Shown here: positions 10,258-15,018 of the stretch, one piece after another | How the letters are laid out: each line of letters begins with the position of its first letter | Position numbering within the stretch: position 1 is the first letter of the stretch | DNA from: Flavobacteriales bacterium | GTDB lineage: Bacteria > Bacteroidota > Bacteroidia > Flavobacteriales_C > GCA-002722245 | DNA: 48,906 nt | Assembly: GCA_947444925.1 (NCBI GenBank) | Contig: CANFBW010000022.1 | Location: 1 to 48,906 of the forward strand | Direction: 5' to 3' | Position numbers and translations under genes: made by a program | The notes under the pieces: model-generated | Seen by the model: the letters and a program-made list of their open reading frames with translations, nothing else | Database searches by the model: none | What the model was told of the DNA's origin: nothing

Positions 10258-10752
10258 CTAAGTTTTCTTGATTTTGTTAATTATGTCCGTCGACGAGAAA
10301 CCATCAATAAAACTCAAGGCCAATACTTTCCCTCCATTGGCGAGCACATGTTCGGCACCAACGATATTGTTAATAGCATAGTCGCCGCCTTTCACCAATA
10401 TATTTGGACTGATAGTATGAATCAATATTTCAGGTGTTTCTTCATTAAACACCACCACCAAATCAACAAAAAATAAACAGGCGAGCATGGCGGCTCGACT
10501 TTCTTCGCTGTTGATTGGCCGAGAAGGTCCTTTAAGTATTTGTACTGAAGCATCTGAATTCACGCCAAGAACCAATTTTTGTCCCAACGAAGCTGCTTCA
10601 CAGAGATAGTGAATGTGGCCTTTGTGCAGCAAGTCAAAACAACCATTGGTAAACACCACCTGTTGCCCTTGTGCCTGCCATGTTAAGATGGTTTTAGCCG
10701 CTTCGAGTCTAGAAACAATTTTACTTTCTACCTTTTGAAGCGCTGCACTCAC
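10258..10752 (-). CDS. rfaE2: D-glycero-beta-D-manno-heptose 1-phosphate adenylyltransferase (HldE C-terminal type)
   Basis: Activates heptose 1-phosphate with ATP to ADP-heptose for lipopolysaccharide core synthesis. The 164-residue protein has the nucleotidyltransferase motif TNGCFDLLHKGH (35-46, including HxGH), the RxxxS-region SRPINSEESRAAML and VVFNEETPEILI followed by VKGGDY, as in the C-terminal half of E. coli HldE. The kinase half is missing, so this is the stand-alone form. The start is GTG at 10752; no earlier ATG is available in frame. It begins 6 nt after panD. The GT9 family protein at 27 kb could use ADP-heptose, but this is inference. Confidence 0.93.
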   Translation of the reverse strand: MSAALQKVESKIVSRLEAAKTILTWQAQGQQVVFTNGCFDLLHKGHIHYLCEAASLGQKLVLGVNSDASVQILKGPSRPINSEESRAAMLACLFFVDLVVVFNEETPEILIHTISPNILVKGGDYAINNIVGAEHVLANGGKVLALSFIDGFSSTDIINKIKKT

Positions 10753-10758
10753 AATAGT

Positions 10759-11109
10759 TTATTTTAATTGGTTGGTCGCCGTATTTGGAAAAATGATCGT
10801 GGGCTTAAATGTCTTTGCTTCCTCTTCATTCAGCAGAGCGTAGGCAATGATGATTACAACATCACCAATAACCACTTTACGCGCAGCAGGACCGTTGAGA
10901 CAAATCTCACCGCTGTCTCTTTTTCCTTTGATCACATAGGTCTCAAGGCGTTCACCATTGTTGATGTTCACCACTTGCACTTTCTGACCTTCCAAGATGT
11001 TTGCTGCTTCCATCAACGTTTCGTCAATGGTGATACTGCCAATATAGTTAACATTCGCTTGCGTAACGGTAACCTGATGTATTTTCGATTTGAGGAACTC
11101 CACTAACAT
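10759..11109 (-). CDS. panD: aspartate 1-decarboxylase
   Basis: Makes beta-alanine for pantothenate. The 116-residue proenzyme contains the self-processing site YIGSIT with Gly24-Ser25, which is cleaved to generate the pyruvoyl cofactor, and the conserved [13 protein letters not shown] stretch. Length is typical. It begins 9 nt after the panC stop, so the two consecutive pantothenate enzymes are co-transcribed; panB and panE are not in the window. Confidence 0.97.
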
Positions 11110-11118
11110 GAGACGAAA

Positions 11119-11964
11119 TTAAGAATTAATACTCATATTGTCGATTAACCTAACTTTTCCCGCATAAGCAGCGACACAAACCACTGATCGCGAAGGGAAT
11201 GAAAAATCAGTGAGGGGCAAAAGTGTTTGAGCATCCACAATCTCCAAATATTCCAAACGGAGGTCGTCATTGTTAAAGAATTTGAAGCGCAATTCTTCTT
11301 TAATTGCTGAAACACTGCGTTTTTCTTTTGCTAAACTTTTTGCGAGATGCAATGCCTTTGCGATTTTTGTCGCTTGCTCACGCTGTGCTGCCGACAAACG
11401 CGCATTGCGCGAACTCATAGCCAAGCCCGATTCTTCTCGAATAGTTGGACTAGCGACAATCCCTATTTCTGGAAAATTTTGAGCGACCAATTTTTGGACA
11501 ATAAACAATTGCTGAAAATCTTTTTGACCAAAATACGCTTTGTTGGGACTAACAATTTGAAACAACAAGGAAACGATATTGACCATCCCTCGAAAATGTC
11601 CGGGACGAAATTCCCCTTCCAACACTTTGTCAACACCTTTTAAATCAAGAGAAACTTCTAGAATTTCGTTGACAAAATCATTCTCAGGAGCGAAAAGTAC
11701 CAAACAGCCATTTTCTTTCAACAAAAGCACGTCATTCACCTCGTCCTTAGGATAAAGCAAAAAATCCTCGGGGTTGTTGAACTGCGTAGGATTGACAAAA
11801 ATGCTGCAAACTGTAACGTCATTTTCCAGAGCCGATTGACGCAATAAAGACGCGTGGCCCTCATGCAAATAGCCCATTGTAGGAACAAAGCCTACGCTTT
11901 TGTGTGCTAGCTTATACTGCGCCACCAAGGCCTCCATTTCATTTCGTTTCCTAACAATCCGCAT
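11119..11964 (-). CDS. panC: pantoate-beta-alanine ligase (pantothenate synthetase)
   Basis: Condenses pantoate and beta-alanine using ATP. The 281-residue protein carries FVPTMGYLHEGH with the HxGH nucleotide-binding motif (34-37), FVNPTQF, GKDF-like GQKDFQQ and the KMSKS-like MSSRNARLS. The start is the ATG at 11964. A longer reading to 11988 would begin at a TTG that is part of a TACCTTTG promoter box, so I reject it. First gene of the panC-panD-nucleotidyltransferase-lipoprotein-radA series, divergent from the glycogen-synthase-like gene. Confidence 0.97.
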   Translation of the reverse strand: MRIVRKRNEMEALVAQYKLAHKSVGFVPTMGYLHEGHASLLRQSALENDVTVCSIFVNPTQFNNPEDFLLYPKDEVNDVLLLKENGCLVLFAPENDFVNEILEVSLDLKGVDKVLEGEFRPGHFRGMVNIVSLLFQIVSPNKAYFGQKDFQQLFIVQKLVAQNFPEIGIVASPTIREESGLAMSSRNARLSAAQREQATKIAKALHLAKSLAKEKRSVSAIKEELRFKFFNNDDLRLEYLEIVDAQTLLPLTDFSFPSRSVVCVAAYAGKVRLIDNMSINS

Positions 11965-11985
11965 ACTCAGTACAATTTGGGACGC

Positions 11986-11993
11986 CAAAGGTA
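11986..11993 (-). promoter_or_regulatory. -7 element of the panC operon
   Basis: TACCTTTG on the minus strand, a perfect TAnnTTTG, 21 nt before the panC ATG. No clear -33 TTG at the expected distance. Confidence 0.5.
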
Positions 11994-12023
11994 AAATAAA
12001 TCTATTGCGATTTCCCTTAGCGC

Positions 12024-12054
12024 TTGAATCTTAGCAAGATTTTTACTACTTTCG
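12024..12054 (+). promoter_or_regulatory. probable promoter of the glycogen-synthase-like gene
   Basis: TTG at 12024-12026 and TACTTTCG at 12047-12054 (one mismatch to TAnnTTTG), 20 nt apart. The leader to the ATG at 12157 would be about 95 nt. It is back to back with the panC promoter. Confidence 0.4.
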
Positions 12055-12156
12055 CATAGAATTTTACTCGTCAAAACATAAGAGCAGATCACTGCAGTTC
12101 ATCTTCATCAAAGTCTCTTATTTTTCGGTTACCGCGAGTGCTATAAAGCAGAAGCA

Positions 12157-12984
12157 ATGAAGAAAGCAAGAATTTTGTTTGTATCACAAGAAATGATTCC
12201 TTACCATGAAGAATCAGAAATTGCATCTGTAGCAAGATATTTGCCGCATGGCATTCAAGGCAAAGGCAAAGAAATTCGCGTATTTATGCCGCGTTTCGGC
12301 TGCATCAACGAGCGCAGAAACCAATTGCACGAAGTAATCCGTTTGTCGGGAATGAACCTCATCATTGACGATGCCGACCATCCATTACTCATCAAAGTAG
12401 CTTCAATACAGCCTGCGCGTATGCAGGTATACTTCATAGACAACGACGAATACTTCGAAAGAAAGTACGGTGTCAAAGACAAAAGCGGTAAATTTTACAG
12501 CGACAACGATGAGCGCGCCATCTTCTTTTGCCGTGGCGTTTTGGAAACGGTAAAAAAATTAGGCTGGTCACCAGACATCATCCATTGCCACGGCTGGATG
12601 ACAGCTTTAGTGCCTTTATACATCAAAAAAGCATTCAACGAAGACCCTATTTTTGAAAACACCAAAGTGATTTATTCTGTATACAACGAAGGTTTCGATA
12701 AAACTCTTGACAAGCGTTTTGCTGAAAAAGCGGTCATCGACGGAGTGAATATCAAAAACCTTAAAGCTGCAGCGAAACCCGATTTCGAGAGCTTGAATAA
12801 ATTAGGCGTGGAATGGTCTGATGCCGTAGTGAAAGGAAGTGAAGAGTTAGAATCAACAATGGAAAAATTCATCGATTCATTGAAAAAACCTGTGCTCCCA
12901 TACTATAGCAAAGAAGAGTACGTTGAACAATACAATAAGTTTTACGATACAGTTTTGGAAGAAGAAACTGTAGCAACGAATTAG
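12157..12984 (+). CDS. glycogen/starch synthase-like protein, N-terminal GT5 domain only
   Basis: 275 residues that match the N-terminal Rossmann domain of GT5 glycogen synthases: ILFVSQEMIP at the start, RVFMPRFGCIN, FFCRGVLET, PDIIHCHGWMTALVPLY and VIYSVYNEGF. Two departures are clear. The C-terminal nucleotide-binding domain (about 200 residues in GlgA) is absent, and the ADP-glucose-binding K-T-G-G-L motif is replaced by EESEI at 18-22. It is therefore doubtful that it makes glycogen by itself. I recall similar short forms as common in Bacteroidota, so this is probably a family of its own, not a recent truncation. The DUF4270 gene follows after 3 nt, implying co-expression. Confidence 0.82.
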   Translation: MKKARILFVSQEMIPYHEESEIASVARYLPHGIQGKGKEIRVFMPRFGCINERRNQLHEVIRLSGMNLIIDDADHPLLIKVASIQPARMQVYFIDNDEYFERKYGVKDKSGKFYSDNDERAIFFCRGVLETVKKLGWSPDIIHCHGWMTALVPLYIKKAFNEDPIFENTKVIYSVYNEGFDKTLDKRFAEKAVIDGVNIKNLKAAAKPDFESLNKLGVEWSDAVVKGSEELESTMEKFIDSLKKPVLPYYSKEEYVEQYNKFYDTVLEEETVATN

Positions 12985-12987
12985 TAA

Positions 12988-14343
12988 ATGATCCCGAGAA
13001 AGTCTACCCATTTTACAAAGCTGTACTTCGCGGCAGCTTTTTTTGCCATACTATTTTTAGCAGGCCAAGCATGCAAAAAAGAAAGTGCTGTCGGCTCTAC
13101 TCTTTTGACCGACGACGATCTGTTGCATGCTACACTAATTGACACTTTTACTGTTGATGCCTATACTCTGCAAAAAGACATGATACTAACAGACGGTATC
13201 CCTAAAATGGCTTTAGGCACATTCAATGATCCTGATTTCGGCATCACACGAGCACAAATTTTTAGTCAGTTCTTATTACCAAAGACCAATTATTCCTTTG
13301 GCACCACTCCTATAATCGACTCTGTGGTATTGAGTTTACACGTTGACAATATTTATGGCAGTAAATCGCAGGCAAGTACTTTTAAAGTTTACAAGGTTGA
13401 CGCACTTTTTAAGGCTGCTGACAACAGTTATAGTTCAAACGATACCATTGCCTATTCCACAGAACTGGGCAGCTCCTCAATTTCTGCCGACACGGGAAAG
13501 GTCAGTATTAAATTAGACAATGCTTTTGGTACGTCGCTCTTGGCTGCCGCAAGTGCCGATTTAGAAAGCAATACAAAATTTGTAAATTTCTTTAAAGGCA
13601 TCAGTGTGAAAGCCTACACCGCAGCACTCAATAGTGGGGAAGGAGCTCTATATTTAATAAACATGACGAATGCCAGCACCAATTTAAGCCTTTACTATCA
13701 CAATAGCGCAGGAAGCGCATCCTTGACACTTACTGTTCCAAAAACAGCCAAACGCTTTGCAAATTACAAACAGGATTACAGCAACACCACAGGTTTACAA
13801 GCACAACTCGCCGACAAATCTCTGGGTAAAACGCAATTGTATTTGCAGTCGCTCAAGGGAACCAAGGTATGCGTGAACATCCCACATATTGCTCAATGGG
13901 CAAAAGGAAAAAAAATAATGTTGAACCGTGCCGAACTGATTTTTCCTTTGCAAGGCGGATCCAATTCTCTATATGCATTGCCCGACGGAGCGTCGATCTA
14001 CAAAGATTCCATGGGCATTACCACGGAACTGCCCGATCAATTCGACTTTGACCACAGTCATCAAGGAGTAAAAAGTCCTGCTTCAGGAATTGCCTATGGA
14101 ACCGCGGCGATTTACTACGGTGGTGCTTATGAAACAAACATGAATTCTTACCCAAACGTAACAGGCTACCGTTTTTTGATAACACGCTACCTCCAAAAAA
14201 AGATTACAAACGAAGAAAACATCACCACCTTGCAGCTTAATGTGGCTTCTAACGCCTATTCGCTGGGAAGAGCAATATTGAATGGCGGAGACATCAATAC
14301 GTCCAATAGAATTAAACTTTTGGTGTATTACACTTATAAATAA
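12988..14343 (+). CDS. DUF4270 family lipoprotein
   Basis: 451 residues. Signal peptide at 11-28 ending in GQAC with lipidated C29 followed by KKES, a Bacteroidota lipoprotein pattern. The mature part is rich in beta strands and Asn/Ser/Thr (for example PKMALGTFNDPDFGITRAQIF, the early conserved element of the family). DUF4270 proteins are Bacteroidota-specific exported proteins of unknown role. It follows the glycogen-synthase-like gene by 3 nt, a pairing I recall from other Bacteroidota, so the two may act together, possibly at the envelope. Transcription ends at the bidirectional terminator 14357-14393. Confidence 0.85.
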   Translation: MIPRKSTHFTKLYFAAAFFAILFLAGQACKKESAVGSTLLTDDDLLHATLIDTFTVDAYTLQKDMILTDGIPKMALGTFNDPDFGITRAQIFSQFLLPKTNYSFGTTPIIDSVVLSLHVDNIYGSKSQASTFKVYKVDALFKAADNSYSSNDTIAYSTELGSSSISADTGKVSIKLDNAFGTSLLAAASADLESNTKFVNFFKGISVKAYTAALNSGEGALYLINMTNASTNLSLYYHNSAGSASLTLTVPKTAKRFANYKQDYSNTTGLQAQLADKSLGKTQLYLQSLKGTKVCVNIPHIAQWAKGKKIMLNRAELIFPLQGGSNSLYALPDGASIYKDSMGITTELPDQFDFDHSHQGVKSPASGIAYGTAAIYYGGAYETNMNSYPNVTGYRFLITRYLQKKITNEENITTLQLNVASNAYSLGRAILNGGDINTSNRIKLLVYYTYK

Positions 14344-14356
14344 AACACGACACATA

Positions 14357-14393
14357 AAAAAAGCCCCCTTGTAAACAACAAGGGGGCTTTTTT
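14357..14393. terminator. bidirectional terminator between DUF4270 and sod genes
   Basis: Stem AAGCCCCCTTGT / ACAAGGGGGCTT (14361-14372 with 14378-14389), loop AAACA, flanked by an A-run on the left and a T-run on the right. It works in both directions and separates the two convergent genes. Confidence 0.95.
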
Positions 14394-14409
14394 ATTTCAA
14401 TGCGCATCA

Positions 14410-15018
14410 CTATTTCGCCTTGGCGTACAACTCAGCTACTTTTTGCCAATTGATAACATTAAAGAAACCAGCGATATAATCGGGTCTTCTGTTTTGGTAT
14501 TTCAAATAGTATGCATGTTCCCAAACATCCAAAGTCAAAATCGGCGTTCCTTTCACATCCACCACATCCATTAAAGGATTGTCTTGGTTTGGTGTTGAAG
14601 AAACAGCCAATTTGCCATCAGCCTTCACGATCAACCAAGCCCAACCAGAACCAAAACGGGTAGCACCAGCATTTGAGAACTCTGTTTTAAAGGCATCAAA
14701 AGAACCAAACGATGTATTTATGGCTTCCGCCAAGTCACCAGTTGGCACTCCGCCACCATTTGGTGACATTAGGTCCCAAAACAGACAATGGTTGTAAAAA
14801 CCACCTCCATTGTTGCGCACCACAGGGGCAACAGTTGAGATACTTGTTAAAATTTCTTCAATCGTCTTTGACTCCAAAGCAGTACCTGCAATAGCGTTAT
14901 TTAGATTGGTAGTATATGCGTTGTGGTGCTTACTATGGTGGATTTCCATTGTTTTAGCATCAACATGGGGCTCCAACGCATCGTAAGCGTAAGGTAATTC
15001 GGGTAGTTTAAAGGCCAT
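14410..15018 (-). CDS. superoxide dismutase, Fe/Mn type
   Basis: Converts superoxide to oxygen and hydrogen peroxide in the cytoplasm. The 202-residue protein has the four metal ligands H27, H77, D164 and H168 (in [13 protein letters not shown] and DVWEHAYYL) and the family sequence GSGWAWL. Fe versus Mn cannot be decided safely. The ATG at 15018 is chosen; a TTG at 15042 belongs to the TACATTTG promoter box. It is monocistronic, with the bidirectional terminator downstream. Confidence 0.96.

Follow-up and report, generated by a model that had tools for sequence, protein, structure and literature searches.

We propose that the 275-residue protein encoded at positions 12157-12984 of the window (the whole stretch of 48,906 nucleotides of Flavobacteriales DNA that was analysed) is a catalytically dead descendant of the glycogen synthase GlgA that arose in place and now binds a ligand in a regulatory role, and we put the probability of this overall explanation at roughly one half. 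Its parts do not stand equally firm. That the protein, which we call the half, is a GT5 pseudoenzyme that arose in place from a GlgA heading its gene cluster is held with high confidence, and for the ligand-binding regulatory mechanism the odds fall slightly short of even. The features of the window that matter here are as follows.

10258-10752, minus strand: stand-alone RfaE-domain-II heptose-1-P adenylyltransferase
10759-11109, minus strand: panD, in line with panC
11119-11988, minus strand: panC, divergent from the half, in the same place in much of Bacteroidia
12157-12984, plus strand: pseudo-GlgA (the half), 275 aa, an intact open reading frame
12988-14343, plus strand: bamH (DUF4270), a 451-aa lipoprotein with lipobox Cys29, starting 3 nt past the stop of the half
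14357-14393, no strand assigned: terminator-like stem-loop of 16 bp with flanking A and T runs (-25.8 kcal/mol, z -8.3)

The half consists of a GT5 N-terminal Rossmann domain (about residues 1-228) and the terminal crossover helix of the GT-B fold (255-273). A sequence-only reading of this DNA had held that the fold of the GlgA N-terminal domain is kept, and this was borne out both by the Pfam model Glyco_transf_5 (PF08323, residues 5-230, E 7.3e-50, 170.3 bits against a gathering score of 22.7) and by an AlphaFold model of high confidence (pLDDT 93.7, pTM 0.92), which VIA-align superimposed on 6gne_B with Z 28.9 (rmsd 2.4 Å over 252 aligned residues) and on starch synthase IV, GBSS and GlgA with Z 25-29. 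The family models for the complete enzyme respond much less: TIGR02095 gave 116.6 bits against a cut-off of 328.45, and the remaining NCBIfam GlgA models were also far under their cut-offs.

Three GlgA motifs are exchanged in the half. EESEI stands at residues 18-22 in the place of KTGGL, as had been noticed from the letters alone, HDW has become HGW, and HN has become YN. Alignment of homologs shows that the loss belongs to the family, since the first Gly of KTGGL is absent from all 50 short homologs (replaced by T in 22, N in 14, S in 13 and D in 1) and retained in 17 of 19 full-length relatives. The Asp of HDW is Gly in 42 of the 50 short proteins, and at the position equivalent to H161 Tyr stands in 31 of them while just 8 keep His, whereas the 19 full-length relatives retain nearly all of KTGGL, the HDW Asp and the H161-equivalent.

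The claim that the protein stops before the C-terminal domain was right in one respect, in that the donor-binding Rossmann domain is missing, and wrong in another, as there is no simple stop. The structural alignment extends to the very end of chains some 480-500 residues long, yet pairs only about 250 residues. When the half was compared with the full-length profile, the match of the N-terminal part ended at column 238 of 495 and beyond it the terminal helix alone was matched. A profile of the tail found its best position at columns 481-494 of the same 495, with a score of 19.7 where the highest of 60 column shuffles reached 15.8, and in a sliding-profile test only the last position gave more than two tail matches above background (5 versus 0.1 in shuffles). 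Because the tail matches the extreme C-terminal helix of GlgA, the donor domain must have been lost internally with the crossover helix kept, and simple truncation at the domain border, which we had considered, was replaced by this account. Since glucose transfer from ADP-glucose requires the lost domain, we read the half as a pseudoenzyme. The very end of the protein may vary among relatives: at G012:C3:511969-512739 and G230:C87:14465-15271 the match to the half crosses one TAA, and the G012 open frame is shorter (258 aa).

With an N-domain alone encoded here, one might think of one part of a split glycosyltransferase whose C-domain comes from a separate gene. Alg13/Alg14 is a precedent for such an arrangement. 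We consider it very improbable: among the matches listed for 40 genomes, the C-domain frames measured at least 350 aa and were thus complete GT4 proteins, the sole exception being a 152-aa fragment near a contig end, and the half keeps GlgA's own terminal helix.

The half was found in 147 of 149 Bacteroidia genomes and in 163 of 169 when the draw was widened to include less complete genomes, and in most of 80 named loci it measures 266-281 aa. Within the genus of the window its dN is 0.05-0.13, below that of panC (0.18-0.40) and of bamH (0.32-0.71); dN/dS of the half is about 0.03-0.08, where dS is near saturation so that the ratios are rough and the order of dN is clear. By these comparisons the half is under purifying selection. 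From the loss of catalytic motifs one could imagine that it is a relic in decay or an artefact of sequencing, but we regard this reading as refuted by the uniform length, the near-universal presence, the low dN/dS and the survival of an intact copy in a 490-kb genome. The strength of selection, greater than on panC, together with a strongly conserved cleft side, could also be taken to mean that the half is an enzyme with some other chemistry, working as an N-domain alone or as a dimer. We find this improbable, as both the donor domain and KTGGL are gone and the H161-equivalent His and the HDW Asp survive in so few short homologs; another transferase role, which the sequence-only reading had left possible, likewise meets the lack of a donor domain.

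Where the half came from can be seen in other lineages of the phylum. There, in 18 of 19 loci, bamH is preceded by a full-length GlgA (488-499 aa) whose motifs are intact; a GmhB-like phosphatase separates the two in 16 of 19, and BamG follows bamH in 11 of 19. These last two names go with scores below the curated cut-offs (237.6 against 250 for the NCBIfam BamG model, 94-128 against 150-178 for the GmhB models), and a class-only HMM and a profile comparison (99.5% probability) served to test for drift in the iterated profiles by which BamH was recognised outside Bacteroidia. Across loci L056-L075 a GmhB-like (heptose bisphosphate) phosphatase is the usual gene in that intermediate position. 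In a maximum-likelihood tree 58 halves form a single clade (SH-aLRT 100) nested in the clade of syntenic full-length GlgA, and the canonical GlgA paralogs of Bacteroidia are set apart from them. This nesting indicates that the loss of the donor domain happened in situ. The ancestral full-length GlgA would have headed a glgA–gmhB-like–bamH–bamG cluster, and would then have lost the donor-binding Rossmann domain, KTGGL and mostly the catalytic His while keeping the N-domain and the crossover helix. By this gene order the link with bamH is older than the truncation. One short gene outside the half clade (L047:3872-4735, minus strand) has KTSAI and the same His-to-Tyr change, with a GmhB-like gene and bamH downstream; here the donor domain was lost a second time, independently, from the same locus.

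The DUF4270 lipoprotein gene had been correctly placed 3 nt past the stop of the half, and we could identify it further. A profile built from its class homologs (A3) matched PDB 9n2d_C, "Bam H", with E 1.5e-92, and the single sequence did so with E 7.8e-06; NF053686 (BamH_fj, the F. johnsoniae form) gave 86.8 bits, under its equivalog cut-off of 420. In Bacteroidota the BAM complex includes BamH as a lipoprotein at the cell surface, on the external side of the outer membrane; it is Bt4306 in B. thetaiotaomicron and Fjoh_0823 in F. johnsoniae (PMC12611786, PMC12578637). Because of the 3-nt gap and the stem-loop directly after bamH, the half and bamH look like a two-gene unit. The stem-loop could serve both strands and is absent from the list of a consensus scan, and an Rfam search over 11500-14700 returned no matches.

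That the pairing recurs in Bacteroidota had been suggested in the sequence-only reading, and it does: bamH lies 3' of the half in 78 of 93 Bacteroidia loci, some of which end at contig edges, and in 16 of 17 half loci of other classes, there in the order half-bamH-bamG. DUF4270 at first seemed to be absent from G049, G213, G249, G271 and G278 (L186-L192), but the narrow Pfam model had missed a divergent BamH that adjoins the half there, which leaves G218 as the only half-bearing genome truly lacking it. On the other side, panC is beside the half in 52 of 80 named loci. The gene glmS is found 3' of the half, or of half and bamH, in 51 of 79 class loci (L076-L155, L186-L200), and in four loci with no bamH found between the two genes it is still close to the half.

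Could the half then be a dedicated BAM factor, a cytoplasmic protein exerting control over the synthesis of BamH (in other classes also of BamG) or over how their precursors are handled early on? In its favour, the half heads a bamH or bamH-bamG cluster phylum-wide, and did so before the truncation too, and the short gap and strong stem-loop point the same way. Moreover, the BAM depletion strains of F. johnsoniae were made with two inducible promoters, one driving from ompA and one from fjoh_0824 (PMC12611786); by synteny and locus numbering, with bamH as Fjoh_0823, we infer that Fjoh_0824 is the half. However, the half persists where bamH has moved, not adjoining it in 11 of 80 named loci despite room downstream, and in several genomes DUF4270 sits on contigs other than that of the half. 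BamH also does its work outside the outer membrane, and one genome has the half and no detectable BamH or Omp85. We therefore hold this reading to be unlikely, although less so than the other alternatives. A scaffold or other physical role with DUF4270, as the sequence-only reading had suggested, is unlikely for similar reasons. The half has no signal peptide as judged by eye, and a scaffold with BamH is topologically implausible because the mature half and BamH would occupy different compartments. The two BAM papers (PMC12611786, PMC12578637) contain no mention of glycogen or of a glycosyltransferase, and do not report the half as a BAM subunit.

The genome in question, G218 (L156-L180), has 490 kb, 21.8% GC and 0.5% masked bases, and is most likely that of a symbiont. 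Its half is intact at 436927-437781 on the minus strand, between eno and gyrB, and retains 32 of the 38 family-invariant residues. Searches of G218 for BamH, Omp85 (BamA), LpxC, GlmS, PanC and PanD gave no matches. This suggests that the core job of the half is independent of BamH, the BAM-independent case being that of this one genome; the wider draw of 169 genomes held no second reduced genome, and a literature search on the half in Blattabacterium or on its essentiality found nothing useful.

A glycogen-making role had been called doubtful from the sequence, and the family-wide loss of domain and motif upholds that doubt. In 24 of 40 half-bearing genomes, G218 included, there was no GlgA-type (GT5), GT4-type, GT3-like or GT35 match, this count being a union tallied by hand over these four enzyme types. 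Among the remaining genomes, a canonical GlgA above cut-off was found in 5, a GT4-type glycogen synthase resembling that of the window's own genome in 10 and a match to the phosphorylase model in 13, some of these last resembling GT3 synthases by length. As to a separate full-length GlgA in the window's own genome, no canonical one was found, but a GT4-type glycogen synthase-like protein is present (P0003, L002, G000:C3:83530-84828), adjoining an open reading frame resembling a debranching enzyme. The half as a glycogen synthase is ruled out for most lineages by the loss of domain and motif and by the genomes devoid of glycogen synthases.

Perhaps, instead, the half is a non-catalytic helper of glycogen synthesis that binds glucan and recruits a separate synthase. 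Its descent from GlgA would fit, as would the 16 of 40 sampled genomes with some glycogen synthase or phosphorylase-like enzyme and the two Bacteroidales loci (L154, L155) in which a GT4-type glycogen synthase lies less than 3 kb from the half. Plant STARCH SYNTHASE 5 (SS5), described as a non-enzymatic starch synthase in granule initiation (PMC10801857), would be the model. We find this improbable nonetheless, given the majority of half-bearing genomes in which there would be no such synthase to help.

We return to the reading that we prefer, in which the half is a conserved pseudoenzyme of the cytoplasm that probably binds a ligand and has a regulatory role. Its conserved basic residues (R41, R53, H58, R62, K80, R102, K103 and R120) and those conserved specifically in the half (S64, V81-A82-S83 and K103) presumably lie on the cleft side of the N-domain, a placement that we take from the general GT-B fold and not from coordinates. 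A conserved basic cleft side suggests that the ligand is phosphorylated or resembles a nucleotide. Most of the invariant basic residues also occur in the full-length enzyme, and may reflect the fold and not a new ligand. In the proposed mechanism the basic cleft-side loops, with the half-specific S64 and V81-A82-S83, would be the binding site for a small molecule of this kind, a partner protein in the cytoplasm would sense whether the site is occupied, and co-transcription with bamH would tie the level of the half to envelope assembly. One published observation may bear on this: two independent screens with a vitamin B12 photo-probe enriched BT_4307, which is annotated as a putative glycogen synthase (log2 2.6 and 1.05; PMC8941943, Table 1). 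The probe may have captured it non-specifically, and we infer that BT_4307 is the B. thetaiotaomicron half from its name and from its place next to Bt4306 (BamH).

We would tentatively go one step further. The N-domain of the GlgA lineage may have had a second function, other than in glycogen synthesis, before catalysis was lost, and may now serve phylum-wide as a perhaps essential cytoplasmic sensor or regulator coupling a sugar-nucleotide-like metabolite to envelope assembly through the bamH(-bamG) operon. With such a function already in place, one would expect what is seen here: the donor domain lost twice, independently, from this locus, and the half kept where no BAM is detectable.

These results concern a family that is present in nearly all Bacteroidia and cannot bind a sugar donor in the usual way, and yet is named glycogen synthase. 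In print, BT_4307 has served as a potential glycogen synthase to support the case for glycogen storage (PMC10797578); this label is probably a misannotation that has spread, and database entries that call this non-catalytic, apparently important protein a glycogen-making enzyme are probably in error. The half is the first gene in the operon of an outer-membrane assembly subunit that is essential or nearly so, and both BAM papers passed it over. A conserved pseudoenzyme in this place raises a genetic question for F. johnsoniae and B. thetaiotaomicron: what is its role, and does it set BAM levels? It is new here that the neighbour is BamH, that a cluster-heading GlgA lost its domain in place and another did so independently, that the helix was retained, that constraint is very strong, and that the half survives where BAM or glycogen synthases are not detectable.

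Among known systems, the half touches on BamH/BamG of the Bacteroidota BAM complex (Fjoh_0823, Bt4306; PDB 9n2d) in that its downstream gene is a member of the BamH family. It resembles bacterial GlgA/starch synthase of GT5 (PRK14098-type; 1rzu, 2qzs, 6gne) in the fold of the N-domain (Z 25-29), in the terminal helix and in an ancestry common with the syntenic full-length GlgA, but it is without the donor Rossmann domain and KTGGL, has mostly lost the active-site His and Asp, and stays under the NCBIfam GlgA cut-offs. Plant SS5 is not known to have the GT1 domain. As a relative of starch synthases without enzymatic activity, kept for another role, SS5 is a further likeness (PMC10801857); the half differs from SS5 in being bacterial, presumably of independent origin, present in genomes without glycogen synthases, and linked to BamH.
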